Virus record (IMG/VR): IMGVR_UViG_3300017719_000085
Location: 1 to 32,668 of that record
Source of the DNA: a virus
Reading direction: 5' to 3' (one strand)
Length of the DNA stretch: 32,668 nucleotides
Below are positions 3,017-32,668 of this stretch, piece after piece (position 1 is the stretch's first letter; every line of letters starts with the position of its first letter). A program made the position numbers and the translations under genes. The notes below the pieces were generated by a model. It saw only the letters and a list, made by a program, of their open reading frames with translations, made no database searches and had not been told where the DNA came from.

Positions 3017-3405
3017 AATGAGTTTTTTAGTTTGGTTATTTTATAATAGTCGGCTAATTTATGTAAACATTCTTTTAGGTTTTGATTTCTTTTATAATTT
3101 ACGCCTCCAGAATAAATTCTATTTACTGTTGTATTTTCCATAGATACAATCTCTTGAGGGTCTGTATTATGCTCGCAGTATATTATAAAAGCATTGCCAT
3201 TAGTTTTTTCCCAACAGTCCACAATTCTTTTAAATACTAATTCTTGACCTATAGAATTAGGCACGCCTTTTAGTTTTATTTCAAATAGAATTAAGTACTT
3301 ATTATCAAATTCTAAAACAGCGTCTATATCTGTAGGGTGTATTTTAGAATTACCTACGCCTCTAAAGTCTAAAACTTGCTTTATTCTTTTATTGTATTTA
3401 ATCAT
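3013..3405 (-). CDS. Small PD-(D/E)XK-type nuclease, possible resolvase
   Basis: 130 residues. An N-terminal HPTDIDAVLEFDNKYLILFEIK segment carries the acidic pair D26/D28 and E42-x-K44, the beta-hairpin core of PD-(D/E)XK nucleases. The rest is mixed alpha/beta and ends in a basic helix. Its size and place between an HTH replication initiator and the primase-helicase fit a Holliday-junction resolvase-like or other structure-specific nuclease that would clear branched DNA before packaging. The fold call comes from visible motifs; the precise activity is inference. ATGA overlaps on both sides show translational coupling. Confidence 0.65.
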   Translation of the reverse strand: MIKYNKRIKQVLDFRGVGNSKIHPTDIDAVLEFDNKYLILFEIKLKGVPNSIGQELVFKRIVDCWEKTNGNAFIIYCEHNTDPQEIVSMENTTVNRIYSGGVNYKRNQNLKECLHKLADYYKITKLKNSL

Positions 3406-4070
3406 TTAGTTATAGCTTTAAAATCTTTATCGGCAAACTTTTGCAAAAACCTATCTAGCTTTCTAACGCCATTTTTAGATTTTCTTAAACTAACTAGAGA
3501 CAGAAAGTTATCAGCCCAAAATTCATCCTTTCTAACCTTTTCTAATAAATAATACAACTGCCTTGGGTTTATTTTATCTTCACTATTACATAATCTTATA
3601 ACGTCTAGCCATTGCTTTTTTTGGTATTCGTTTTTTGGTCTATTACGTTCTGGAAATAATGGCACTATGTACTCATAAGACTTTAAAACTTGTTCGCTGA
3701 AAGCGTGGTCACTATTATTATTTATATTATTAATACTAGTATATATATTATCTTTAACAATTTTGTTTATAGGGTATAAGCTTTTTTGCTCATAGGTATT
3801 AACAAAAATGTAACGCTTTTCAATTTGCTTATTTTTATTTCTTATAACTTTTGTTTTTATAAATCCAAATTTTTCAAGCTGTGAAATCCATCTACTTACA
3901 GTTCCTTTTTCTACGTTATATAACTCAGCAAAATACGAGTTTTGAGCAAAACATTTACCGCTCTTATTTGTTAGAGCGTTTATTTCTGCATAAAGGAGCT
4001 TTGAGTTTGGAGCTAGGTCTTCTGAGTACCTTACCTCAGCTGGTAAGATAGCGTAATAGCTTGGTTTCAT
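3402..4070 (-). CDS. Replication initiator-like protein with winged HTH
   Basis: 222 residues. The N-terminus (MKPSYYAILPAEVRYSEDL..LLYAEINALT) and the following HTH (about residues 30-85, CFAQNSYFAELYNVEKGTVSRWISQLEKFGFI) match HTH_36/DnaD-like phage initiators. A low-complexity linker (INNINNNS, near 110) leads to a helical C-terminal half, as in DnaD-type proteins that contact a helicase or its loader. It lies two genes before the primase-helicase, as such initiators usually do. A role in opening or marking the phage origin is inferred; no iterons were found. Confidence 0.78.
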   Translation of the reverse strand: MKPSYYAILPAEVRYSEDLAPNSKLLYAEINALTNKSGKCFAQNSYFAELYNVEKGTVSRWISQLEKFGFIKTKVIRNKNKQIEKRYIFVNTYEQKSLYPINKIVKDNIYTSINNINNNSDHAFSEQVLKSYEYIVPLFPERNRPKNEYQKKQWLDVIRLCNSEDKINPRQLYYLLEKVRKDEFWADNFLSLVSLRKSKNGVRKLDRFLQKFADKDFKAITK

Positions 4071-4328: not shown

Positions 4329-4986
4329 TTAAATCAATTCTATATTTAAAATAATTGTCTATTATGTCCTTTGCTTTATCAAAAGAGTTACACCAATGAG
4401 CGCTCCAGTTTCCATTCTCAAGCATTTTAAGGCACTCTAACTGACTTTCTGTTGGTTTATTATACCCAACCTTCAATTCAATAGCTAAACCGCTAAAACC
4501 GCCTCTATTTTCAAAACAGAGTATATCTGGCACTCCAGCCTTACCGCCTAAGTATTTAAATTTATATCGCTCAAAAGGAGTTCTACGACCTTCATTAGGG
4601 CAATGTATAGTTAAAGTCTTAGGAAAATTAAGCCTTAAATAAGATATTACTGCATTTTGCAGCTTATCTTCTTTTGATAGATATTTATCGAAGTTATTTA
4701 CAGTCAACGCTTTAAATTTATTTTCTAAGTTATTAAATTTTACTTTAAAATCTTGGTCATATTGTAAAAATTCTTTAGCTCGCCTTATAGAATGTAATAC
4801 GGTAGCGTGGTCTCTGTTTATTTCCTTGCCTATAATTGCTAAAGAATAATCAGTATATTTTCTAACAATAAGGCAGTAGATGTGCCTAGCCTCTACTAAA
4901 TTTCGACGCCTTGATTTTACAGATATTTTACAGTTTTGGTCTTTTTCAACCAGTCGTCTAATATGTATGGGTTTTATAGTAATCAT
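4321..4986 (-). CDS. DnaA domain IV-like HTH fused to VRR-NUC nuclease
   Basis: 221 residues with two recognisable parts. Residues about 25-75 match the DNA-binding domain IV of DnaA: SRRRNLVEARHIYCLIVRK, then IIGKEINRDHATVLHSIRR with the DnaA signature RDHATVLH (58-65). After a lysine-rich linker, residues about 110-205 look like a VRR-NUC (PD-(D/E)XK) domain: GGKAGVPDILCF (D154), LAIELKV (E170, K172) and Q182. VRR-NUC enzymes act on branched or flapped DNA; DnaA domain IV reads DnaA boxes. The join suggests a nuclease targeted to host-like origin sequences or to a phage origin (inference). The AAA+ part of DnaA is absent. Four-base overlap with the exonuclease gene. Confidence 0.82.
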   Translation of the reverse strand: MITIKPIHIRRLVEKDQNCKISVKSRRRNLVEARHIYCLIVRKYTDYSLAIIGKEINRDHATVLHSIRRAKEFLQYDQDFKVKFNNLENKFKALTVNNFDKYLSKEDKLQNAVISYLRLNFPKTLTIHCPNEGRRTPFERYKFKYLGGKAGVPDILCFENRGGFSGLAIELKVGYNKPTESQLECLKMLENGNWSAHWCNSFDKAKDIIDNYFKYRIDLNV

Positions 4987-5741
4987 AATACAATAGAACC
5001 GTCTTTATTAGTATTGTCGCTGTATATTCCTAGAATACCTTCACCGTCGAGGTAATGTTTCCATTGTCTGAGAGCGTGCTTATATTTAAAACGACCTCTC
5101 TCTATTTGGTCTTCATTTAAAGCATAAACAGCAACGTCAAAAGGGTGAACGTTTCTAATAGCTATAAATCTAAAACTAAAAGGGTTATAACCTAAACAGT
5201 CGCAATAAAAAGCAGCTTGTAAGTCGTAATTTCTAAAGTTTATTTCACTTCTAAACGCCCTTATACTTATATCCTTTGAAGTTTTAATATCTGAAATCCA
5301 ACTATCACTATGGCAATCTGGGCGAACTCTAACTGGTATGCCTTCAAAATCTAAATAGTGAGACTGTTCTACAATTCCATTACCGTAATGCATAGCTATT
5401 TTATTATCTTCAAAATGAGCTAGGATATTAAATAAGTTTTGGCTTTGTTCTTGGTCTATAAGAATTTTATCTCCAGCATCCTTTAAATACACTTTTTTAG
5501 CTTCTTTATTTGCCTTGAGCCTTAAATCTAACTTAGGCATAACATAATACTGCTTTTTAAACTCTTCACGACCTTCATAAAGTAGCGTATGAACCGCTGT
5601 GCCAAATTTCATTGCGTCGCTCTCAAAAGGTTTTTGATTTAAAAAATAATATACAGACTGGCTATATATAGTTTTTAATCCAGAGGCTGAAATACTGTCG
5701 CTTGAATGATACTCATCGTTGGTGTCAAATACTTTTCTCAT
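4983..5741 (-). CDS. RecE/DUF3799-like PD-(D/E)XK exonuclease
   Basis: 252 residues with the marks of the phage exodeoxyribonuclease VIII-like (DUF3799) family: FGTAVHTLLYEG (H51), VRVRPDCH (D142), SDIKTSKD (D151-x-K153) and NYDLQAAFYCD (Q175, Y179). These are the His, Asp, Asp/Glu-x-Lys and Gln-xxx-Tyr motifs of RecB/RecE-type nucleases. It should resect double-stranded ends to make the single strands used by the ERF-like annealing protein encoded upstream. The start at 5741 lies 17 bases inside the preceding coiled-coil gene. Part of a recombination set: ERF, SSB-like protein, exonuclease. Confidence 0.85.
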   Translation of the reverse strand: MRKVFDTNDEYHSSDSISASGLKTIYSQSVYYFLNQKPFESDAMKFGTAVHTLLYEGREEFKKQYYVMPKLDLRLKANKEAKKVYLKDAGDKILIDQEQSQNLFNILAHFEDNKIAMHYGNGIVEQSHYLDFEGIPVRVRPDCHSDSWISDIKTSKDISIRAFRSEINFRNYDLQAAFYCDCLGYNPFSFRFIAIRNVHPFDVAVYALNEDQIERGRFKYKHALRQWKHYLDGEGILGIYSDNTNKDGSIVL

Positions 5742-6281: not shown

Positions 6282-6530
6282 TTAAAAAGGTAAATCATTA
6301 GACTCTTCTGGAGCTTGTACTGGTTTAGTTTGGGCTGGTTGCATCTCAGAAATAAGACCGCCTAGATAATTTTTACCAGTTGATTTAGCTGTATTAACCC
6401 AAGCGGATACTCTAAACTGCTTACCGCTAGCGTCTGTCATTGTACCAGAATAATCTGGCTGTTTGTCTTCAGTCTTTTGCTCGTTTTTAAATAGACTAAA
6501 GGAGTTTGGTTTTTGTTCGTATGTACTCAT
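6282..6530 (-). CDS. Single-stranded DNA-binding-like protein with SSB-type tail
   Basis: 82 residues. The middle part (DYSGTMTDASGKQFRVSAWVNTAKSTGKNYLGGLIS) is a small beta-rich module resembling DUF736-like/OB-type phage proteins. The protein ends in a flexible Gln/Pro-rich tail with an acidic hydrophobic tip, ESNDLPF, very like the DDDIPF tip by which bacterial SSBs recruit partners. It starts in an ATGA overlap with the ERF-like gene. A role in coating single strands during ERF-mediated annealing or replication is inferred from the tail, size and neighbours. The OB fold itself cannot be proven by eye. Confidence 0.65.
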   Translation of the reverse strand: MSTYEQKPNSFSLFKNEQKTEDKQPDYSGTMTDASGKQFRVSAWVNTAKSTGKNYLGGLISEMQPAQTKPVQAPEESNDLPF

Positions 6531-6949
6531 AATTCAAAATTATTAGGGTTATTAATAGGTTTAATCGTGTTATTAGATTTGCGGCTAACTGTTTGGTTAG
6601 CGTCGTCGTCTTCGGCTTCTAATCCTAAAAGTGACTGTAAGCCATAACGTCTATAGTATGTAATCTCAGAGCCGCGCTCTTGAGGTTTTATAGATTGTAT
6701 TGCCAAACCTTCTGGCTTATCTGGAAAAACAGCGCCAGTATCTGAGTCTATAATTATTGTAATAACTTCATTTTTAATTATAGGCTGGCTTAAAAACAAT
6801 TTCTCAGATTTTAGTATTGGTTTTACTACTCTTAAAATTGAATTTATATCTGTATAATAGCTTTTAAAAAAAGGGTTTGATTTATCTTTCTTAATCGCCT
6901 CTACTTTGTGAAAGACGTTAAATATCTTTTTGGCTAATTCTGGCGTCAT
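6527..6949 (-). CDS. erf: ERF-family single-strand annealing protein
   Basis: 140-residue recombinase of the Erf family. The diagnostic core GSEITYYRRYGLQSLLGLEAEDDDAN (residues 93-118) is present. The N-terminus (FHKVEAIKKDKSNPFFKSYYTDINSILRVV) matches the family start in which Lys and Tyr residues precede the beta core. It is shorter than P22 Erf (about 200 residues) and ends in an Asn/Pro-rich tail. It should anneal strands exposed by the exonuclease encoded downstream, aiding circularisation or concatemer formation. It overlaps the HTH gene by 32 bases and the SSB-like gene by 4. Confidence 0.9.
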   Translation of the reverse strand: MTPELAKKIFNVFHKVEAIKKDKSNPFFKSYYTDINSILRVVKPILKSEKLFLSQPIIKNEVITIIIDSDTGAVFPDKPEGLAIQSIKPQERGSEITYYRRYGLQSLLGLEAEDDDANQTVSRKSNNTIKPINNPNNFEL

Positions 6950-7230: not shown

Positions 7231-7506
7231 TTATCTAAATTTTCTAACTATTTTACTGCCTATAATAAGATTAACATTGTCATTAGGAAACTGCTTTATT
7301 AAGCTACCTAGTGCGTCTGTTTCTGATATTCCAAAGTCAGCTTGCAAACCCCAGAAGTCTTTTCTAGTTACTGCTATGGTTATGTGATTATGCGCATTGG
7401 CATTAAACTCTGAGGGTATCAAAGTACTAAAGCCGTCTTCAAAGCCAACCTCTAATGAGGTTTGACCTTGGTCGTTAATTGTTGATTGAATAAATAAATT
7501 TTCCAT
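7231..7506 (-). CDS. Hypothetical early protein, 91 aa
   Basis: Mixed alpha/beta protein (MENLFIQSTINDQGQTSLEVGFEDGF...LIIGSKIVRKFR) with a basic C-terminus. Second gene of the early operon, 13 bases after the 65-residue gene. No motif recognised. Position right behind the strong early promoter suggests a host-takeover or regulatory role (inference). Confidence 0.72.
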   Translation of the reverse strand: MENLFIQSTINDQGQTSLEVGFEDGFSTLIPSEFNANAHNHITIAVTRKDFWGLQADFGISETDALGSLIKQFPNDNVNLIIGSKIVRKFR

Positions 7507-7519
7507 TGTTTTGATTGTT

Positions 7520-7717
7520 TTAAAAAGTTCTAGTTATTTTAACTGGTTTATTAAGTATGAGTAATTCATACATAAACATATTCCTCACTTCAGTTTTTTT
7601 ACTGATATTCAAATCAGCAAAATCGCTGTTAAAATTCATTCTAGCTAATTCTTCAAGCCTAGTTGATGGTAATACTTCTATTGTTTCAATAGTTTTATTT
7701 AGAGATACTTCAGTCAT
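7520..7717 (-). CDS. First early protein, 65 aa
   Basis: First gene after the promoter at 7747-7777; the expected leader is about 25-30 bases and A-rich. The protein (MTEVSLNKTIETIEVLPSTRLEELARMNFNSDF...) looks helical with a short beta tail ending KITRTF. No domain recognised. As the promoter-proximal gene it would be made first and most strongly. The only other gene with a near-identical promoter is at 25763, which encodes an unrelated protein. Confidence 0.72.
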   Translation of the reverse strand: MTEVSLNKTIETIEVLPSTRLEELARMNFNSDFADLNISKKTEVRNMFMYELLILNKPVKITRTF

Positions 7718-7746
7718 TTTGATTGTTTTTGTTGTTAATTATGACG

Positions 7747-7777
7747 CTAATTTAAAAAATACTTTTAATTCTACAAA
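7747..7777 (-). promoter_or_regulatory. Early promoter, Bacteroidetes type
   Basis: On the minus strand, TTTG (7777-7774), exactly 19 bases, then TAAATTAG (7754-7747), close to the flavobacterial TTTG-N19-TAnnTTTG consensus. The following bases continue as CGTCATAATTAAC. The same TTTG, spacing, TAAATTAG and downstream TCATAATTAAC recur at 25796-25826. The promoter lies just after a terminator and 30 bases before the first early gene. Confidence 0.85.
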
Positions 7778-7796
7778 ACATTTTAAAGAAAATTTT

Positions 7797-7834
7797 AAAA
7801 AAAAAATCCCCTCCAGTTAAAAAACCTTTGGGGA
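7797..7834 (-). terminator. Terminator closing the tail operon
   Basis: Minus-strand hairpin with outer arms TCCCC (7834-7830) and GGGGA (7811-7807), an internal loop and a short GTT/AAC inner stem. It is followed by ten Ts. It sits 24 bases after the last tail gene stop and just ahead of the early promoter. The stem is not very strong, but the T-tract and position fit. Confidence 0.65.
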
Positions 7835-23034: not shown

Positions 23035-23353
23035 TTTTAGTAGCTTTTATGGTTGAAAAATATTTATGAATTGAATCATAAACCTCTTTAATTCTATAAT
23101 CTCCAGAAACTCCAGAAATAGCTAATAAATCAGTTTTTAAAATAGTCTCCGCTGTTTTTTTTCTAACAGTCAGCTCTATTTCAAGATACTGCTGGCGCTT
23201 TCCGTTTTCTTGTACTATCTCGCCGCTAGTTTCTTTTTTATTAGCCCATATAGTAGAATTAACAGCGCTAGTAGAAGTAGTACCCCCAAAACCGTCAGCG
23301 GTCTTAGTAAGCCTCTTAACCTCTACTCTAGTATCTAGTTTTCCAGCGTCCAT
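23027..23353 (-). CDS. Head closure protein (SPP1 gp16-like)
   Basis: 108 residues, starting MDAGKLDTRVEVKRLTKTADGFGG and continuing with beta strands (IWANKKETSGEI, QQYLEIELTVRKK, YRIKEVYDS). This is the phage head-tail joining fold, PF05521-like. It should lock the portal/connector channel after packaging. It shares one base with the connector stop and overlaps the gp10-like gene by 8. Confidence 0.88.
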   Translation of the reverse strand: MDAGKLDTRVEVKRLTKTADGFGGTTSTSAVNSTIWANKKETSGEIVQENGKRQQYLEIELTVRKKTAETILKTDLLAISGVSGDYRIKEVYDSIHKYFSTIKATKIG

Positions 23354-23913
23354 TAAATAAACATAGTTTTATACCCAGATAAAATGCTTTTAACGTTTAT
23401 TGGTATAATGTTAACTTGTCGCTGACCTATAACAAACTCGGCTCTATTGTCGTAGAATGTAGATACTAGTCTTAGTACAGCTTGCTTTAATAAACTGTCA
23501 TCTAGCCCAGATGTAGTATAAGCTACTTGCACTTCTTTAGCTGGTAGCTCGTTTAGCTCTACAATCTCATTATCTAGACCTTTAACCTCATAGGTAGCCG
23601 CTGTGCCGTCAACAGTTACAGAAGTAATAGAGGCAACTGGCGCAAATGGTAAAACAAAGCGCTCTTTTTGGAATGGAGTATAATAGGTTCTAGTCTTTGC
23701 TACAAGGTCTTTAGTTATATAGTTTTCAATCCATATTCTAGCCTCTGTAATCATTTCGCCTATTATAGTGTCATCAGCGCTAGTATCAACTCTAATAAAA
23801 TCCTTAGCCTCTGAAGTAGTAACTAATTCGCTGCCAGTTGTAGAGTTAATCTTAACTTGGCTATGAAAGTCGTTAGGGTTTTCACTAAAGTATAAACTTC
23901 TATAATATGCCAT
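23353..23913 (-). CDS. Head-tail connector (gp6-like)
   Basis: 186 residues. The string ELVTTSEAKDFIRVDTSADDTIIGEMITEARIWIENYITK is the hallmark of the gp6/YqbG-like connector family, followed by VLPFAPVASITSVTVDG. The adaptor forms the ring under the portal. It starts one base from the previous stop and begins the neck gene set. Its N-terminal extension (MAYYRSLYFSENPND) is unusual but short. Confidence 0.9.
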   Translation of the reverse strand: MAYYRSLYFSENPNDFHSQVKINSTTGSELVTTSEAKDFIRVDTSADDTIIGEMITEARIWIENYITKDLVAKTRTYYTPFQKERFVLPFAPVASITSVTVDGTAATYEVKGLDNEIVELNELPAKEVQVAYTTSGLDDSLLKQAVLRLVSTFYDNRAEFVIGQRQVNIIPINVKSILSGYKTMFI

Positions 23914-24131
23914 TATTTAGCTTTTTTAGTAGCTCTTTTTTTTGGAGCTTTTGCTTCTTTGGTCTCTACCTTAGCCTTTACTTCTTTTACCTCTTTTACC
24001 TCTTCGGCTAATACTCCTATACCTCTATTAATATAGTGATTAGCTAATTTAGTTTCTAGGTCGTGAATTTCGCCTTCGCGTCTCCAGCCAGCTTGTCCAG
24101 ATATAACGTCTTTTTTTATTAAGATTTTCAT
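23913..24131 (-). CDS. Small protein with Lys/Ala/Glu-rich tail, 72 aa
   Basis: Start placed at the ATG at 24131 (MKILIKKDVISGQAGWRREGEIHDL), not at 24197: the longer version would begin inside the terminator at 24155-24186 with an implausible N-terminus. The first 45 residues form a small folded part, and the tail is charged and repetitive (EEVKEVKEVKAKVETKEAKAPKKRATKKAK). Similar short proteins lie between capsid and connector genes in other Bacteroidetes phages. Function unknown; a capsid-decorating or DNA-binding role is possible from charge. Confidence 0.72.
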   Translation of the reverse strand: MKILIKKDVISGQAGWRREGEIHDLETKLANHYINRGIGVLAEEVKEVKEVKAKVETKEAKAPKKRATKKAK

Positions 24132-24147
24132 AAGATTATTATTTATA

Positions 24148-24155
24148 CAAAGATA
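24148..24155 (-). promoter_or_regulatory. Possible -7 box restarting neck-gene transcription
   Basis: TATCTTTG on the minus strand lies at the end of the T-tract of the terminator and 16 bases before the ATG at 24131, matching TAnnTTTG. A TTG at -33 is not evident. It is needed in principle because three terminators precede the neck genes. Confidence 0.5.
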
Positions 24156-24186
24156 AAAAAAAAGCGCCATAATAAAATTACAGCGC
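24155..24186 (-). terminator. Rho-independent terminator after nuclease gene
   Basis: Minus-strand arms GCGCTGTAAT and ATTATGGCGC form a 10-position stem (two G-U pairs) around a TTT loop, followed by nine Ts. It lies 34 bases after the nuclease stop and before the next gene's start. Confidence 0.88.
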
Positions 24187-24220
24187 CTAACAACCAAAAC
24201 TCTTACTATGAATAAAAGAA

Positions 24221-24595
24221 TTATTCAAATGCAAAGTTATTAAAAAAAACTTTATGCTTATTAAATTTAGAAAGTCTTATAGAGGTAGGCATATTTTTTA
24301 CATTTTGAAAGATAAAAAAACCTTCATAGTATTTAACCCAGACGGCAAAATAATCAACTGCACTAGTGCTGTAAATTGACCTAGCGCTGGATATTCTACA
24401 ATGGACAGACTTGTTTAAGCCTATTGGCTTCTTACCAGTAGATTTTACTTGTATTTTAAAAAGATTTTTTCCATTATCTATAATACAATCATAGGCGCTA
24501 GAATCTAAAAGCGGAAAACTTACCTTATAACCTCTCTTTAAACATTCGGTAGCGAATAAGTACTCTGCTAAGCAACCTCTTAAATTATTATCCAA
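24221..24595 (-). CDS. PD-(D/E)XK nuclease of homing/intron-endonuclease type
   Basis: Probable start is TTG at 24595 (protein about 124 residues: MDNNLRGCLAEYLFATECLKRGYKV). The longer frame to ATG 24679 would read through a terminator. The core AEYLFATECLKRGYKVSFPLLDSSAYDCIID...NLFKIQVKST shows the catalytic Asp pair and QVK (Gln replacing Glu) of the group I intron-type PDDEXK_5 nucleases. Such free-standing enzymes spread or defend their own locus. It is bracketed by terminators and preceded by an 18-base palindrome (24606-24623). It was probably gained by transfer between head genes. TTG start and boundaries remain uncertain. Confidence 0.72.
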   Translation of the reverse strand: MDNNLRGCLAEYLFATECLKRGYKVSFPLLDSSAYDCIIDNGKNLFKIQVKSTGKKPIGLNKSVHCRISSARSIYSTSAVDYFAVWVKYYEGFFIFQNVKNMPTSIRLSKFNKHKVFFNNFAFE

Positions 24596-24605
24596 TTTGG
24601 TTTGG

Positions 24606-24623
24606 TTTGTACTAAAGTACAAA
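24606..24623. other. Perfect 18-bp palindrome before the nuclease gene
   Basis: TTTGTACT, two bases, AGTACAAA. The last bases overlap the T-tract of the terminator at 24621-24658, and the nuclease start is about 10 bases downstream. It looks like an operator or nuclease binding site, or an added hairpin after the terminator. Confidence 0.6.
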
Positions 24624-24658
24624 AAAACCCCCAGCTGAGTATTAACAGAGCTGAGGGT
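24621..24658 (-). terminator. Rho-independent terminator closing small-gene cassette
   Basis: Minus-strand ACCCTCAGCT and AGCTGGGGGT pair over 10 positions (one G-U) around a 12-base loop and are followed by seven Ts. It is located 31 bases after the stop of the 37-residue gene. Confidence 0.9.
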
Positions 24659-24689
24659 ACAATCAACTAAACAAAACAAACAAATTAAA

Positions 24690-24803
24690 CTAAGGCTTTT
24701 TTTTATCTATGCCCGAAAGATACTTATTTAAAATTATAATTTTTTTTATGCTTTTGTCTATTTGTTGCATACTTTTTTTAAAAGTGTCCTTCTCTATTTC
24801 CAT
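24690..24803 (-). CDS. Tiny lysine-rich protein, 37 aa
   Basis: ATG at 24803, overlapping the previous 50-residue gene by 26 bases, ending at 24690. The peptide (MEIEKDTFKKSMQQIDKSIKK...DKKKP) is an amphipathic, lysine-rich helix. It is the last gene before a strong terminator. No function recognised; overlap and position give moderate support for expression. Confidence 0.5.
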   Translation of the reverse strand: MEIEKDTFKKSMQQIDKSIKKIIILNKYLSGIDKKKP

Positions 24804-24930
24804 ACCTATAAATTACAAATGATATTAATAACATAAAAATAGAATCATACAAAGCGTTAAATCTGTAAATCATTCTAACAGACCACGCCATAAAAAAAAG
24901 TATTAAAATAATATTTACAGCTCTCTCCAT
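24778..24930 (-). CDS. Small membrane protein, 50 aa
   Basis: ATG at 24930, 2 bases after the previous stop, encoding 50 residues with two hydrophobic helices (ILILFFMAWSVRMIY and DSIFMLLISFVIYRY) separated by a short polar loop. Cassette location suggests an accessory role, for example superinfection exclusion at the membrane (inference only). Confidence 0.6.
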   Translation of the reverse strand: MERAVNIILILFFMAWSVRMIYRFNALYDSIFMLLISFVIYRYGNREGHF

Positions 24931-24932
24931 AA

Positions 24933-25073
24933 CTAACTAGTAAACATTAAAACAGCCAAACCTATACAGCCTAAAAAAACTAAAGTGTCTCTGGAAAACC
25001 ACCAGATAAAATTTAAAAGACCTTTAAGGTTTGATTTTTTCGATTCAATTTCAATAAAAATATATTTTCTCAT
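24933..25073 (-). CDS. Small membrane protein, 46 aa
   Basis: ATG at 25073 encodes 46 residues: an acidic/basic N-terminal part (MRKYIFIEIESKKSN) and a C-terminal membrane helix (TLVFLGCIGLAVLMF). It follows the hairpin at 25098-25115 by 24 bases. Orientation rules suggest N-in. Function unknown; possible membrane partner of the following gene. Confidence 0.6.
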   Translation of the reverse strand: MRKYIFIEIESKKSNLKGLLNFIWWFSRDTLVFLGCIGLAVLMFTS

Positions 25074-25097
25074 AATTAAAATTTAGTTAGACAATAA

Positions 25098-25115
25098 GAG
25101 GGCGTTGCCGCCCTC
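25098..25115 (-). other. GCAA-tetraloop hairpin upstream of 46-aa gene
   Basis: Transcript strand GAGGGCG-GCAA-CGCCCTC: seven pairs closed by a GNRA tetraloop. It lies 14 bases after the 95-residue gene stop and 24 before the next ATG. No T-tract follows. Confidence 0.75.
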
Positions 25116-25129
25116 CGTTTTGGTTGTTA

Positions 25130-25417
25130 TTAAATGTAATATATAGCGTTTTTAATAGCATCTTTTATAGCTGGCAAAAATGTAGTTTCGCCTCCATACA
25201 TAATTTCACCATTTGGGTATAGTATAGAAAGTTGATTGTTTTCATCTTTAAGAATGTGAAACATAAGATAATTTCCATTAATTAAAATTGCCTCATAAGT
25301 TTTTTTATGCTCAAAGTCATTAGGCATTCCAGTAGGTTTGTCATTATTACCTTTTAAACCTCTTATAATTAAAGGGTACTTTAAACCAGTTTCGTTAGTG
25401 TTAAATGTTTTTGTCAT
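25130..25417 (-). CDS. Hypothetical protein, 95 aa
   Basis: MTKTFNTNETGLKYPLIIRGLKGNNDKPTG...IKDAIKNAIYYI: mixed alpha/beta with strands (YEAILINGNYLMFHIL, LSILYPNGEIMYG) and a C-terminal helix. No domain recognised. Second gene of the accessory cassette, flanked on both sides by GCAA-tetraloop hairpins, which suggests separate control of its message segment. Confidence 0.7.
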   Translation of the reverse strand: MTKTFNTNETGLKYPLIIRGLKGNNDKPTGMPNDFEHKKTYEAILINGNYLMFHILKDENNQLSILYPNGEIMYGGETTFLPAIKDAIKNAIYYI

Positions 25418-25433
25418 TTTATTTAGTTTTAAT

Positions 25434-25451
25434 AGGGGGCTTGCGCCCCCT
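25434..25451 (-). other. GCAA-tetraloop hairpin upstream of 95-aa gene
   Basis: Transcript strand AGGGGGC-GCAA-GCCCCCT: seven pairs and a GNRA tetraloop. It lies 9 bases after the 100-residue gene stop and 16 before the ATG at 25417. Both hairpins are preceded by an AACAACCAA-like stretch. Confidence 0.78.
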
Positions 25452-25460
25452 TGGTTGTTG

Positions 25461-25763
25461 TTATTTTACTTCTAAGTTAATAAACTTAAACTCTGGGCTT
25501 CCAGCGTTTGTCCGCTTACCAGTTAACTTATAGAATCCTTTATTAATCTCCACAAAAGAACCATCAGCAAAACCTTCGTCATCAATTAGAGTTAATATAC
25601 CTTTTGTAGATAAAGTAGTAATTAAGGCTCTTAGTTGTCTTGAGTCTATGTTTATTTCGTGAACATTACACCAAGCTGGTGAATCAGACCCAAAATCTTC
25701 AGCTGTAAAATTTTGAATTGCTTTTAATACTTGATTTTCGTTATTTGTTATTTGTGTTTTCAT
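25461..25763 (-). CDS. Probable winged-HTH protein, 100 aa
   Basis: First gene after the promoter at 25796-25826. MKTQITNNENQVLKAIQNFTAEDF...DSRQLRALITTLSTKGILTLIDDEGFADGSFVEINKGFYKL reads as helix, helix, recognition-like helix and beta wing, fitting a winged helix domain. It might regulate its own promoter or the identical early promoter (inference). No exact family recognised. The leader is about 25-30 bases, A-rich. Confidence 0.7.
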   Translation of the reverse strand: MKTQITNNENQVLKAIQNFTAEDFGSDSPAWCNVHEINIDSRQLRALITTLSTKGILTLIDDEGFADGSFVEINKGFYKLTGKRTNAGSPEFKFINLEVK

Positions 25764-25795
25764 AATTGTTATTGTTTTGATTGTTAATTATGATG

Positions 25796-25826
25796 CTAAT
25801 TTAAAAGTATTTTTTTAATTACCAAA
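25796..25826 (-). promoter_or_regulatory. Accessory-cassette promoter, copy of early promoter
   Basis: Minus strand: TTTG (25826-25823), 19 bases, TAAATTAG (25803-25796), then CATCATAATTAAC. The element and spacing equal those at 7747-7777, and the downstream TCATAATTAAC is also shared, while the flanks and spacers differ. It lies just after the capsid terminator and 32 bases before the first cassette gene. Confidence 0.85.
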
Positions 25827-25869
25827 CCTTTTTAAAAGTTTTTTTTAAATTTTCTTATTTATAGAGCAT

Positions 25870-25898
25870 AAAAAAGGGCAACCTATAAAAGTTACCCT
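25870..25898 (-). terminator. Terminator after major capsid gene
   Basis: Minus-strand AGGGTAAC and GTTGCCCT pair over 8 positions (one G-U) around an 8-base loop, followed by six Ts. It lies 30 bases after the capsid stop codon. Confidence 0.82.
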
Positions 25899-25928
25899 CT
25901 TTAAAATTACTTACTTTATACCTTAGTA

Positions 25929-27146
25929 TTAAGAAGTCTCAAGTGCAGTTTTAGCTGTGCTAAACGTTCCTTGTACAATCGCGTTAGGCTGATAATTTGT
26001 CAAAGCGCAACGCTCTTGGGCGCGAACTGTAACAAATCCGTCTCTGAAATTAGTAGAATCTTCTCTTGAAAATTCGACTCCTAAACCGTCTCTAATCCAT
26101 AATTGAGTAGCAACGCTTAAGTTACCTACTAAGAATTTACCAGCAGTTACAGCTGTATTCAAAGTAATTGGCACTCCCATAATCGCTGGCTGTACGCCTT
26201 GGATTACTTGGTTTTTCAAATACTCATTAGCAGTAGATTTCAATAAAACGATTTTATGGAAGTCAACTGGGTTCAATATAATAGAATCAGCTTGATAGTT
26301 ACTAGCTGCTAACTGGTCTAAAGCTGCAATAAGTACATCGTACTCATTTGCTGACTCAATAGACTGGTAAAAATTAGCTGAGCTAGAAGTTACAAAAGCA
26401 GCTCCGTCAGTAAATAAACCATCTAGGTTAGGGCTTGAACCGTCACCGTTAAGAATCTCAGTGTCTTCAATAGAAAGTACTTTATTAGGTACTCTAGCTG
26501 ATAAATAGCTCGTAAGCTGTGGAGTATCTGCTAGCATCTCTTCAGTAATTCTCATAAAAGTGCCAATCTTTTCAACGTTTACAGACGTAGCTGTAATATC
26601 AAAGTCAGACTGTCCTAGAGTAGAACCTTGAGCTGTAGCAGCCGCTCCGTCGTCGTATGCGCTTTCTTTTGGAAAACGAATAGTTTGAGCATCAGTAGAA
26701 CCGTTAGGAATCAATGAGCGAATATGTACCGCTCTACTAGGGTCAAATTTAACGTCTGGAATTACAGTTTCGCCAGCTACAACACCAGTAAAGGCATTAG
26801 CCATTGTCATATCCCCAGCTTTTACTTCAAAGCGAGCAGCGTTTGTACTTCCTTTAATCATAGCGTCAATTGCGCCATCTTTTAAAGCAGCCTCTAAAGA
26901 CCCTTTAAAAGTTTTAGCAGTTGCACCGCTTAGAGTCTTTTTTGACTCCATCTCGATAGCGTCCATTCTTTTAGTAGCCGCCTCGAACTCTTCATTATAC
27001 TTATTAGTTAGATTGGAAATCTCAGACTTTAGAGATGCCTCAACTTCGCCTTTAGCGTTGTCTTGAGCAGCGTTAAACGCTTTCTCTATTTTTTCGTCTA
27101 CAATGTTTCCAATTTGGTCTAACTGGTTTTTAACTTCTTCAGTCAT
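25929..27146 (-). CDS. Major capsid protein, HK97 fold
   Basis: 405 residues. The N-terminal ~100 residues are charged helices (KNQLDQIGNIVDEKIEKAFNAAQDNAKGEVEASLKS), the delta domain that acts as built-in scaffold and is removed by the prohead protease encoded just upstream. The HK97 core follows: GAFTG-like ANAFTGVVAGE, VHIRSLIPNGS, FPKESAYDDGAA, KIGTFMRITEEMLADTPQLTSYL and a C-terminal FRDGFVTVRAQERCALTNYQPNAIVQGTF. It ends at a terminator, consistent with high expression. The mature protein should be about 300 residues. Confidence 0.95.
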   Translation of the reverse strand: MTEEVKNQLDQIGNIVDEKIEKAFNAAQDNAKGEVEASLKSEISNLTNKYNEEFEAATKRMDAIEMESKKTLSGATAKTFKGSLEAALKDGAIDAMIKGSTNAARFEVKAGDMTMANAFTGVVAGETVIPDVKFDPSRAVHIRSLIPNGSTDAQTIRFPKESAYDDGAAATAQGSTLGQSDFDITATSVNVEKIGTFMRITEEMLADTPQLTSYLSARVPNKVLSIEDTEILNGDGSSPNLDGLFTDGAAFVTSSSANFYQSIESANEYDVLIAALDQLAASNYQADSIILNPVDFHKIVLLKSTANEYLKNQVIQGVQPAIMGVPITLNTAVTAGKFLVGNLSVATQLWIRDGLGVEFSREDSTNFRDGFVTVRAQERCALTNYQPNAIVQGTFSTAKTALETS

Positions 27147-27854: not shown

Positions 27855-28046
27855 TTAATTTTCAATGTAATCAAAATCTAACCAGTCTGGTCGATTTCTA
27901 TCTGTTATTATTTTTATTTCTCGCCCTCTGCTTTGCTTTAATATTTCTAATGTAGTTTCCTCGCCATAGAAAAAAATTAAAGAAGTCAATGACTCAGCCT
28001 CTGGATAGTTTTCGGAGTATGTAAGCATTAATTGCTGTAGCATCAT
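27855..28046 (-). CDS. Small acidic protein overlapping the MuF-zincin gene
   Basis: 63 residues from ATG 28046 (MMLQQLMLTYSENYPEAES...RPDWLDFDYIEN), or 57 from ATG 28028. It overlaps the end of the metalloprotease fusion by 53 bases in another frame, and ends 12 bases before the protease gene. The C-terminus is acidic with RNRPDWLDFDY. A small gene directly after a MuF-type toxin-like fusion is where an immunity protein would be, but this is inference; a head-assembly partner is equally possible. Confidence 0.6.
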   Translation of the reverse strand: MMLQQLMLTYSENYPEAESLTSLIFFYGEETTLEILKQSRGREIKIITDRNRPDWLDFDYIEN

Positions 28047-29691
28047 ATTTAGTATTTATTAATAATTCATCAACTAATTTTATTAAGTCATCGTAAAGCT
28101 CTGGGAAATATTTTTTAAAGACTGGATTGCCTACAAACCTATTTTCGTAAGCGTGCGCCATAAACTCTTCATATTGCATACTTTTATATCTAAAATAATC
28201 TCTCCAGCCGTGACCCCATCCAATTTGGTTGTTAGACAAACTACATAGGTAGTCTGCAACTGCTCCAGAGTATTCTTTAATTTCTGTATCCGTAAGGTTT
28301 GGAAAATCTTTTCTAATCTTATTATCCAAATAAGGTCTATAGTTTTTCCAGTAGTTTTTATTAGAAGTAGCTGAGGTTTTGCCACCCCCCCAGTTTTTAG
28401 TTAAAGCCTTTCCTTTGTTAGTTAATTTTGCTGTAGCTCTATCCATAAAGATACTACTATGTTTTTTATATAAAGCCTCTATTCTAGCATCTGTTTTATA
28501 TATACTAATTAAATTTAAATCAGCATTAATAGCGTGTCCGAATTCGTGAGCTAATATTTGTTTTTCAAAACCCTTATAGCGCTCTGAAGATATCTGTATT
28601 GTTCTATTTCTATTATTAAACCAAGAGCCGTCTTCAACATTTTTACCTAGTCTTCTTGAATATTTAATTTTAGCCTTTTGTAGTTTTATTGGCTTTTTCA
28701 GATATTGTAAATACGAGTCGTCAAAGTCTTCTAAGCCTTTAAAGTCATCCCAGTTACTAGGTCTAAACTCGTATTTAGCTGCTTCTTCAGCCGCCTCGCT
28801 TACTTGCTGAGGTTTAGGTTTAAGTATATCGTCAACTGCATTAGCTGAGTCTAAACCTATAGCTCTACCAGCACTTAATCCATAATCAAAGCCAGTCAAT
28901 GGCGTTATAGTCTGAGCCTCTGCTTTTGGAAATGGCGCAATAGCACAGCGACAGTTTACAACGTTTGCAGCTGAGCCAGCTGGGTCTCCAGCTCGGTCTA
29001 GCATTTCTCCGCCTACTTTAAATTTATCGTTAAAGTCTACTATTTGACCATTAGCGAAAGCGTGAGCTGAGCGTTCTCTACCATCCATTGAGGTTATCCA
29101 TTTCTTCTGCAAGCTGTTTTTACCATAGACGTCAGTAGCCGACTGCATAACGCCTAAGTTAGCGGCATTAGTAGCCTCAGTTCTTACTATCCTTTCAGCT
29201 TGATAACGTCCTAGCTTATTAAACCTCTGCCTCAGAATGCGCCCTTTTTCGGCAGCACCTCGACTCTGGAAGTCCGCATCCGTCATTAATTTCTTTAATG
29301 TCTTCTCCAGCTCCTTTTTCGCAGTTCCTTGTACAGTTACAACTCTCGCCGCTGCAACCCTTTTTCCCTCTTTTGCAAATATTGTTTCCCAAGTGTCCTT
29401 ATATTTATTTGTATCTAATTGTTTTATTATGTACTTGTCAATGCTATTAGCATACCAACCAGCAAACCTAACAGCAATATCGACGTAAATAGACTCGTAA
29501 ATTTCATCGTATTGAGCCTTTAAAAATAAATCGTTAAAATTAGAGGTCTTTCCAGTTTTAAGAAACTGGTCTAAACCTTTATCATATTCTTTTTTATAAT
29601 AAGACCTTACAGCGCCTATCTGTTTTTTTTCTCCTATTCTAAGCTGCTTATCGTAGGCTCTTATATATTTGTCGTCTTTGACATCAGCCAT
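27994..29691 (-). CDS. Mu gpF-like minor head protein fused to zinc metalloprotease
   Basis: 565 residues. Residues about 1-255 form the phage head morphogenesis (Mu gpF/SPP1 gp7-like) domain: AERIVRTEATNAANLG (165-180), KKWITSMDGRERSAHAFANGQIV, and VVNCRCAIAP (244-253). After an acidic linker (285-310), residues about 310-565 hold a metallopeptidase-like domain: ILAHEFGHAINAD with HEFGH at 382-386, GWGHGWRDYF (491-500) and YEEFMAHAYEN (507-517) supplying a possible third zinc ligand. Fusions of MuF heads to effector domains are known, delivering enzymes with the DNA or processing the capsid. The function of this domain here is open. Encoded between portal and protease genes. Confidence 0.9.
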   Translation of the reverse strand: MADVKDDKYIRAYDKQLRIGEKKQIGAVRSYYKKEYDKGLDQFLKTGKTSNFNDLFLKAQYDEIYESIYVDIAVRFAGWYANSIDKYIIKQLDTNKYKDTWETIFAKEGKRVAAARVVTVQGTAKKELEKTLKKLMTDADFQSRGAAEKGRILRQRFNKLGRYQAERIVRTEATNAANLGVMQSATDVYGKNSLQKKWITSMDGRERSAHAFANGQIVDFNDKFKVGGEMLDRAGDPAGSAANVVNCRCAIAPFPKAEAQTITPLTGFDYGLSAGRAIGLDSANAVDDILKPKPQQVSEAAEEAAKYEFRPSNWDDFKGLEDFDDSYLQYLKKPIKLQKAKIKYSRRLGKNVEDGSWFNNRNRTIQISSERYKGFEKQILAHEFGHAINADLNLISIYKTDARIEALYKKHSSIFMDRATAKLTNKGKALTKNWGGGKTSATSNKNYWKNYRPYLDNKIRKDFPNLTDTEIKEYSGAVADYLCSLSNNQIGWGHGWRDYFRYKSMQYEEFMAHAYENRFVGNPVFKKYFPELYDDLIKLVDELLINTKYDATAINAYILRKLSRG

Positions 29692-32034: not shown

Positions 32035-32668
32035 TTAAATTACAAAAAAATCGATACGCTTAGAATACTGCGAATAGGTGCAATATCTAAGGCTGTCCAT
32101 TAAATGATTTAAGCGGTCTTTTGGCTTGTTTATTATAGTGCCATCTTTTAATTGCTCCCAATAATAACCAGAGTACTCTTTAGCAAAGTTCTTAGATTCT
32201 TTAGAAACGTAAACGTCAAACTCCTTTAATAAACTAATGCCAGCATTAATAGAACCTTGACCCTTTATAGCCGCCTTTGCAAAGATACCCATTCTGCGCA
32301 ACTCTTCCCCACTCTTAGGCTCGGCGCTATCGTAAAAGATTATCGTGTTATCGTAGCCTTTCTCTTTAAAAAATGTAGCTAGGTCTTGGTTAGTCATTCC
32401 AGTTTTATATAGTATTTCGTGAACGTATAGCTTATTTTGTTTTTTAAATACTAAACAAGCTGCTGATGGGTCTGAGCTAAAGCCAAAGTCTAAGCCTATT
32501 ACCGCCTCGCTTTCTAAATCAAAGTCTGGGAAATCCTTATAAGGAATAAACTGCCAGTTGCTAAATATTTGCCTAGCTGAATAGACCGCTCTTTGACCCT
32601 CACCGTAGACTCGCCAATAGTCTGGGTCTTTTTCCCTCATTCGCTCTATTTCTTTTACTATCTCTGGA
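32035..32668 (-). CDS. terL: Terminase large subunit, C-terminal nuclease part (5' end at window start)
   Basis: C-terminal part of the large terminase, including the 123-base overlap with the window start. The RNase H-like nuclease domain that cuts concatemers is visible: the beta strand GLDFGFSSDPS supplies the first catalytic Asp, IIFYDSAEPKSGEELRRMG the middle acidic site, and NHLMDSLRY near the C-terminus the last Asp. This order is known from Terminase_6C/Terminase_3 proteins. The Met at 32640 is internal (equivalent to position 95) and is not the real start. The stop at 32035 lies 27 bases before the portal start. Confidence 0.93.
   Translation of the reverse strand, partial: PEIVKEIERMREKDPDYWRVYGEGQRAVYSARQIFSNWQFIPYKDFPDFDLESEAVIGLDFGFSSDPSAACLVFKKQNKLYVHEILYKTGMTNQDLATFFKEKGYDNTIIFYDSAEPKSGEELRRMGIFAKAAIKGQGSINAGISLLKEFDVYVSKESKNFAKEYSGYYWEQLKDGTIINKPKDRLNHLMDSLRYCTYSQYSKRIDFFVI
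32546..32668. repeat. Terminal direct repeat, right copy (circular assembly overlap)
   Basis: Second exact copy of positions 1-123, inside the large terminase gene. It supports completeness of the genome and suggests circularly permuted or concatemeric DNA, but does not by itself distinguish headful from cos packaging. Confidence 0.95.

Follow-up and report, generated by a model that had tools for sequence, protein, structure and literature searches.

A terminator-fenced stretch between the capsid and neck genes of an uncultured marine phage as a probable site of accessory-gene exchange

The stretch between the capsid and neck genes of an uncultured marine phage probably serves as a docking site at which accessory genes are exchanged and resembles the PeSL shuffling of T4 phages; on sequence comparison, we assign this reading a probability of roughly 0.7. 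The window analyzed is the entire 32,668-nucleotide IMG/VR record IMGVR_UViG_3300017719_000085, in which the proposed docking site, termed dock 1, is recognized by a comparison with related loci that reveals fixed fencing, turnover of the fenced genes, sharp edges of the exchanged stretch, obligatory 3' hairpins, sharing of genes with a second dock and swaps of nuclease alleles.

The 32.7-kb record, with a GC content of 35%, looks like a complete genome. Its first 123 bases (1-123) are directly repeated at its end (32546-32668), which suggests that the genome is probably circular or circularly permuted, with a length of about 32.5 kb. The minus strand carries every major gene as well as the features described below. 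The gene order is terminase, portal, Mu-F-like protein, protease, capsid, dock 1, connector genes, lysis and tail, followed by recombination and replication genes. The left neighbor of dock 1 is the gene of the HK97-type major capsid protein (25929..27146; PF05065, E=7.5e-36; phrog_10). On the other side, the neck and tail unit begins with p72 (23913..24131), present in most relatives and weakly matching phrog_2616, and the right neighbor of dock 1 is the head-tail connector gene (23353..23913; PF05135, phrog_442). The window has no close isolate phage; the nearest portals, about 34% identical, are those of Cellulophaga phages, and isolate phages searched with the dock 1 nuclease and with the cassette protein p100 gave no match. 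Since a search of 84,980 genomes of bacteria and archaea gave no capsid relatives, neither a prophage nor a host can be assigned. An integrase was likewise not matched among the ORFs scanned in the window. Terminators were counted in 62 related loci (61 for T3), and ORF clusters and the P1 promoter pattern were determined in 65 loci; groups A and B denote the two closest groups of relatives. Because the relatives contain near-duplicates, the counts overstate independence, and the variety of hairpins and the number of distinct clusters are the safer measures.

Along the minus strand the predicted terminator T1, a promoter of the Bacteroidetes type, five small genes, T2, a nuclease gene and T3 follow one another, with the three terminators contained in 1.75 kb. 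T1 (25872..25901; -15.6 kcal/mol) lies behind the capsid gene and occurs in 62 of 62 relatives with 24 distinct sequences; T2 (24627..24658; -17.9 kcal/mol) is found in 61 of 62 relatives as 33 distinct hairpin sequences, and T3 (24163..24187; -11.4 kcal/mol) in all 61 as 29. Each is followed by a T-run. Most stem positions show several pair types among the relatives which, together with the number of distinct hairpins, indicates that base pairing is preserved as the stem sequences diverge. The scan searched for hairpins and then for T-runs, with Markov shuffles of the genome as the control; the shuffled genomes contained 0-1 hairpins at <= -9 kcal/mol. In the whole 32.7-kb genome there are four strong non-coding sites that combine a hairpin with a T-run, namely, T1, T2, T3 and T4 (7834-7807), and apart from T4 the only other strong hairpin on the gene strand lies within the tape-measure gene. 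The claim of the first-pass annotation that three strong hairpin terminators are located within 1.8 kb was thus borne out. Random control windows contained a terminator-like hairpin in 6-10% of cases, which is an upper bound because such windows may contain terminator sites themselves, versus 61-62 of 62 relatives for T1, T2 and T3. In ten near-complete genomes of relatives T1-T3 were present throughout, and a -7-like box always followed T2 and T3. An Rfam search yielded no RNA family.

The predicted promoter P1 (25796..25826) has the form TTTG-N19-TAAATTAG, which belongs to the Bacteroidetes -33/-7 type and, with one deviation, matches the flavobacterial sigma-A box TAnnTTTG (PMC9723704). A scan for sigma-70 promoters is uninformative for such a host type, and the Bacteroidetes box was used instead. 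The strict P1 pattern occurs in 27 of 65 relatives compared with 2.6% of control windows, so that some relatives lack a clear -33 box; across the genome, it is no more frequent than expected by chance. A P2-like -7 box, TACTTTAG (24612..24619), directly adjoins the T-run of T2; of the 61 relatives with T2, 59 have behind it a TAnnTT box with a purine at the last position (TAnnTTWR type). After the T-run of T3 lies the -7 box of P3, TATCTTTG (24148..24155), identical in 54 of 61 relatives and replaced by TATTTTTG in 7 of 61. From these predicted promoters and terminators we infer how the dock is transcribed. T1 would end the capsid transcript and P1 would restart transcription into a unit composed of one to three variable small genes and a persistent pair of genes for small membrane proteins, which T2 would end. 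A weak promoter after T2 would feed the resident nuclease, whose transcript would end at T3, and P3 would restart the neck and tail genes. In such an arrangement swaps at the dock would leave head and tail expression undisturbed, and the fence, by separating the dock from the transcription of head and tail genes, would make exchange tolerable.

The interval between T1 and T2 contains five small ORFs of 100, 95, 46, 50 and 37 amino acids, of which the 46- and 50-residue proteins have one hydrophobic segment each and are predicted by hydropathy only to reside in a membrane. The earlier description of a promoter and five very small genes, at least two of them encoding membrane proteins, agrees with this result. 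The gene next to P1, p100 (25461..25763), has a weak predicted fold of the winged-helix (MarR-like) kind (VIA Z about 6), with Foldseek matches that were not significant. For other cassette genes, Pfam and PADLOC searches returned nothing. Among the viral contigs, p95 (25130..25417) was found only in the near-identical contig of locus L001, and a 66% identical homolog in genome G003 was detected by direct comparison. The remaining genes are tm46 (24933..25073), present in all group A relatives, tm50 (24778..24930; cluster c1, 19 loci) and p37 (24690..24803; cluster c6), which encodes a small charged protein and persists in close relatives. Based on this distribution, tm46 and tm50 are regarded as a persistent part of the locus and not as cargo. 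In many relatives the last gene before T2 is a member of cluster c3 (L072, L075, L077), which encodes small paired-cysteine proteins resembling zinc ribbons.

The variable genes turn over. In the 65 loci, clustering of the ORFs located between the capsid and nuclease genes gives 61 clusters, many of them private, and the part adjoining P1 changes most. The window and L001 carry p100 and p95 in this slot, L002, with 99% capsid identity, carries one unrelated gene of 177 amino acids and L003 yet another; all pairs of group A with less than 99.5% capsid identity differ in slot content. Acquired genes that vary among close relatives, a trait of morons, are therefore seen at dock 1. A DNA comparison of the window with L002 gives 97.6% identity down to 25758, unrelated sequence from 25758 to 25132 and then 83% identity. 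The left edge of the exchanged stretch is formed by an A-rich leader (25764..25795) and the right edge by a GC hairpin before tm46, GAGGGCG-GCAA-CGCCCTC (25097..25116). The latter has no T-run, displays paired changes in L002-L036 and is maintained in these loci irrespective of the preceding gene. Clusters c15, c18 and c13 have different gene company in groups A and B, indicative of new combinations. Relatives that carry the same genes without terminators had been named as the finding that would speak against an island; the opposite was found, namely, different genes with the same terminators.

A further constant feature is a GC-rich tetraloop hairpin after the stop codon, present in 36 of 36 promoter-proximal slot genes of groups A and B versus 0 of 111 neighboring structural genes. 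The loops are GCAA, GAAA, GTAA, TTGC or TCAT, and a T-run follows in 1 of the 36. The hairpin after p100, GGGGGC-GCAA-GCCCCC (25434..25451), has no T-run in the window, but a near-identical stem behind p100 in the unrelated contigs L089 and L090 does, which suggests that the window hairpin may be a terminator that has lost its T-run or else a hairpin with another role. Neither the two T-less hairpins of the cassette nor the promoter-like boxes behind T2 and T3 figured in the first-pass annotation. At L100-L103 (genomes G005 and G006), palindromic terminators of the form AAGGGATCAT..CGATCCCTT recur within one genome, at dock 1 and elsewhere, each adjoining a small gene.

Where the early operon begins, a second dock (7231-7834) follows T4 (7807..7834; -10.6 kcal/mol), a predicted terminator that ends the structural operon and occupies the same place in relatives. 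Its predicted promoter P4 (7747..7777) has the form TTTG-N19-TAAATTAG, with the boxes and spacing of P1; the local alignment of P1 with P4 scores 72, whereas none of 300 shuffles exceeds 40. The genes of dock 2 (7231..7717) encode proteins of 65 (7520-7717) and 91 (7231-7506) amino acids, and different small genes occupy this place among relatives. When the slot genes were compared with the window and ten genomes of relatives, all matches outside dock 1 lay in dock 2. These include the p95 homolog of G003 and cluster c29, for which dock 1 of L026 and L027 and dock 2 of G004 show about 97% DNA identity over a stretch that runs from position -66 to 33 nt downstream of the gene and takes in everything from the promoter to the end of the hairpin. 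The 91-residue protein of the window is 34% identical to c54, a dock 1 gene product of L056. Sharing between the docks thus concerns three gene families only (p95, c29, c54), one of them at 34% identity. In L119, T4 and the P4-like promoter are separated by additional sequence that apparently carries a gene in the opposite orientation.

The cassettes also occur beyond this phage group. Copies of p100 with 80-84% identity are found in the same dock of L087 and in seven contigs from phages of an unrelated group, where p100 is located directly behind the terminase gene (terminase identity about 34%) and is accompanied by matching promoter and leader sequence. In several of these contigs the next gene encodes a small membrane protein related to dock 1 cluster c0 or c12; in L083, L085, L086 and L090, at about 3330-3580, p100 follows terminase and precedes a membrane protein related to c0. 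In the best case the exchanged unit consists of promoter, leader, gene and 3' hairpin. Related phages have such units again in the same dock, and they are also encountered in dock 2 before the early operon and in unrelated phages.

The terminators might instead balance expression, with a step-down after the abundant capsid and a restart for the tail, and the variable genes would then be passive passengers in a tolerant gap. The universality of T1 and of T3/P3 and the presence in Cellulophaga phage phi17:1 of a post-capsid terminator without an insert are consistent with such a function. However, it leaves unexplained the hairpin behind every slot gene, the matching promoter of dock 2 and the genes shared by the docks, and we consider it rather unlikely as an alternative to the docking site, with which it is compatible as an added role. 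Equally, the locus might be a unit of superinfection exclusion or defense, with the host envelope as the site of action of its small membrane proteins. Small single-pass membrane proteins do occur in most relatives, but neither they nor the cassette proteins match defense families in PADLOC, and the membrane genes form the stable part of the locus, contrary to the variation expected of exclusion genes, which makes this function quite improbable.

The gene between T2 and T3 (24221..24595) encodes a PD-(D/E)XK nuclease that matches PF11645 (PDDEXK_5) in 30 of 30 and adopts the fold of I-Ssp6803I (PDB 2OST, E=3.4e-8). I-Ssp6803I is the top match in the fold comparison, followed by SPARDA nuclease domains and Holliday-junction resolvases (Hjc), and the active-site residues E11, D36 and Q49-x-K51 are invariant in 30 of 30. 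Translation probably starts with TTG at 24595, which would place the end of T2 only about 30 nt upstream of the nuclease. The start codon is GTG or TTG in 45 of 62 relatives; in 31 it lies only 3-7 nt after the post-T2 box, from which a nearly leaderless message may be expected, with the reservation that starts placed by rule in a few relatives may be off. The nuclease is present in every relative with a complete region and is single-copy at the same place in eleven relatives. A mobile insert was rejected for these reasons; the patchy presence with intact empty sites that is typical of homing endonucleases was not seen. Of the homing-type nuclease originally proposed, the type stood and the mobility did not: judged by its fold the protein is of the homing-enzyme type, and judged by its distribution it is a resident core gene.

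The nuclease gene itself is subject to exchange. The flanks of the gene have 98-100% identity between L070 and L071, and T2 and T3 are unchanged, yet the nuclease genes of these two loci share only 70% nucleotide identity, and the central part of the gene (L070 6988-7350, L071 5406-5768) is replaced by a diverged allele. Among 149 close pairs, nuclease identity falls below 75% in 11, versus none for five other genes. These data indicate that nuclease alleles are swapped between phages at a fixed place. The dN/dS of the nuclease was not used, synonymous sites being often saturated. The nuclease might drive slot conversion by cutting the DNA of rival phages at this site or by resolving junctions, as the folds of I-Ssp6803I and Hjc, its constant position next to dock 1 and the allele swaps between near-identical phages could imply, but dock 2 also varies and has no adjoining nuclease of the PDDEXK_5 family, so that we regard this as very unlikely. 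It is highly improbable that a single insertion brought promoter, genes, terminators and a mobile homing nuclease together, for although phi17:1, one of the nearest isolates with a similar portal, has adjacent capsid and connector genes with only a terminator between them and the nuclease has a homing-enzyme fold, the terminators and the nuclease occur in all relatives with a complete region while the cargo differs, which contradicts a one-off island as a complete account, and the nuclease is a single copy in one place. The moron island in the head operon originally suggested is retained as an accessory region with its own promoter and terminators, but not as a static insertion, in view of its reuse for exchange and of the second dock.

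The docking site would most likely exchange its units when phages co-infect a cell and recombine homologously, with leaders, hairpins and terminators as the shared sequence. We infer this route from the enzymes encoded by the phage, an Erf-like single-strand annealing protein (6527..6949; phrog_2324, E=1.5e-31) and an exonuclease VIII (RecE)-like partner (4983..5741; phrog_412, E=2e-54), which would assist exchange across the conserved modules, given that Rad52-like phage recombinases of the Erf/Red type join diverged DNA and build mosaics (PMC3945230). A more elaborate proposal, which we consider improbable, is that units of promoter, leader, gene and hairpin move between the late and the early dock, with the tetraloop hairpins as signals for exchange or RNA processing and with the participation of the I-Ssp6803I/Hjc-like nuclease. 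Were it true, the move of a cassette from one dock to the other would shift the timing of expression of one and the same accessory gene.

Among known systems the nearest parallel is the PeSL (promoter early stem-loop) of T4-like phages, reported by Arbiol (2010) and Comeau (2014, Genome Biol Evol); PeSL shuffling in T4-like phages is cited in PMC4503421. Composite modules of promoter and stem-loop reportedly lie on either side of small genes that have no known function and mediate the recombinational shuffling of these genes. The repetition of the composite at several places is also found here, where T1-P1 and T4-P4 share boxes and leader and genes are exchanged at both. The dock works alike without being a member: it belongs to a 32-kb phage that is not T4-like, with an HK97-type capsid and Bacteroidetes promoters of the host type, and it is distinguished by two fixed positions, by the hairpin without a T-run after each cassette gene and by the resident nuclease between two terminators. 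The morons of lambdoid phages resemble the dock in that accessory genes with their own (here predicted) promoter and terminator lie between genes that are adjacent elsewhere, as in phi17:1. However, the fencing of the dock is constant and outlives its cargo, the cargo units recur in two docks, and no integrase that would point to expression from a prophage was found among the ORFs scanned. I-Ssp6803I and the PDDEXK_5 family agree with the dock nuclease in fold, in the E...D...QxK active site and in size; the latter differs in not being located in an intron, in its occurrence in all relatives with a complete region and in the swapping of its alleles at a fixed place. Relaxed Rad52-like recombination (PMC3945230) shares with the proposed route annealing proteins of the Erf/Red type that build mosaics across diverged homology, but was described in temperate coliphages, whereas regulatory modules would be the exchange points here. 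Integron cassettes, too, are arrays of small genes separated by hairpins, yet the dock lacks a detectable integrase in the ORFs scanned, its cassettes carry or share promoters and its tetraloop stems are short.

These comparisons provide a testable account of how small phages can acquire accessory genes and pass them among one another while the structural operon stays intact. Because the docks are recognizable by their punctuation alone, uncharacterized small genes with likely roles in conflict with hosts or phages can be collected from metagenomes; for the cargo described here, a role in host takeover or competition between phages is likely only by analogy. That phages unrelated to the T4 type have an architecture like that of PeSLs suggests a general role of regulatory modules as exchange points in phage evolution. 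Outside the docks, the Mu-F-like head protein of the window (27994-29691) has an extra C-terminal part that weakly matches a metallopeptidase (PF06114, phrog_87), and L087 encodes a 285-residue version without this metallopeptidase-like part.
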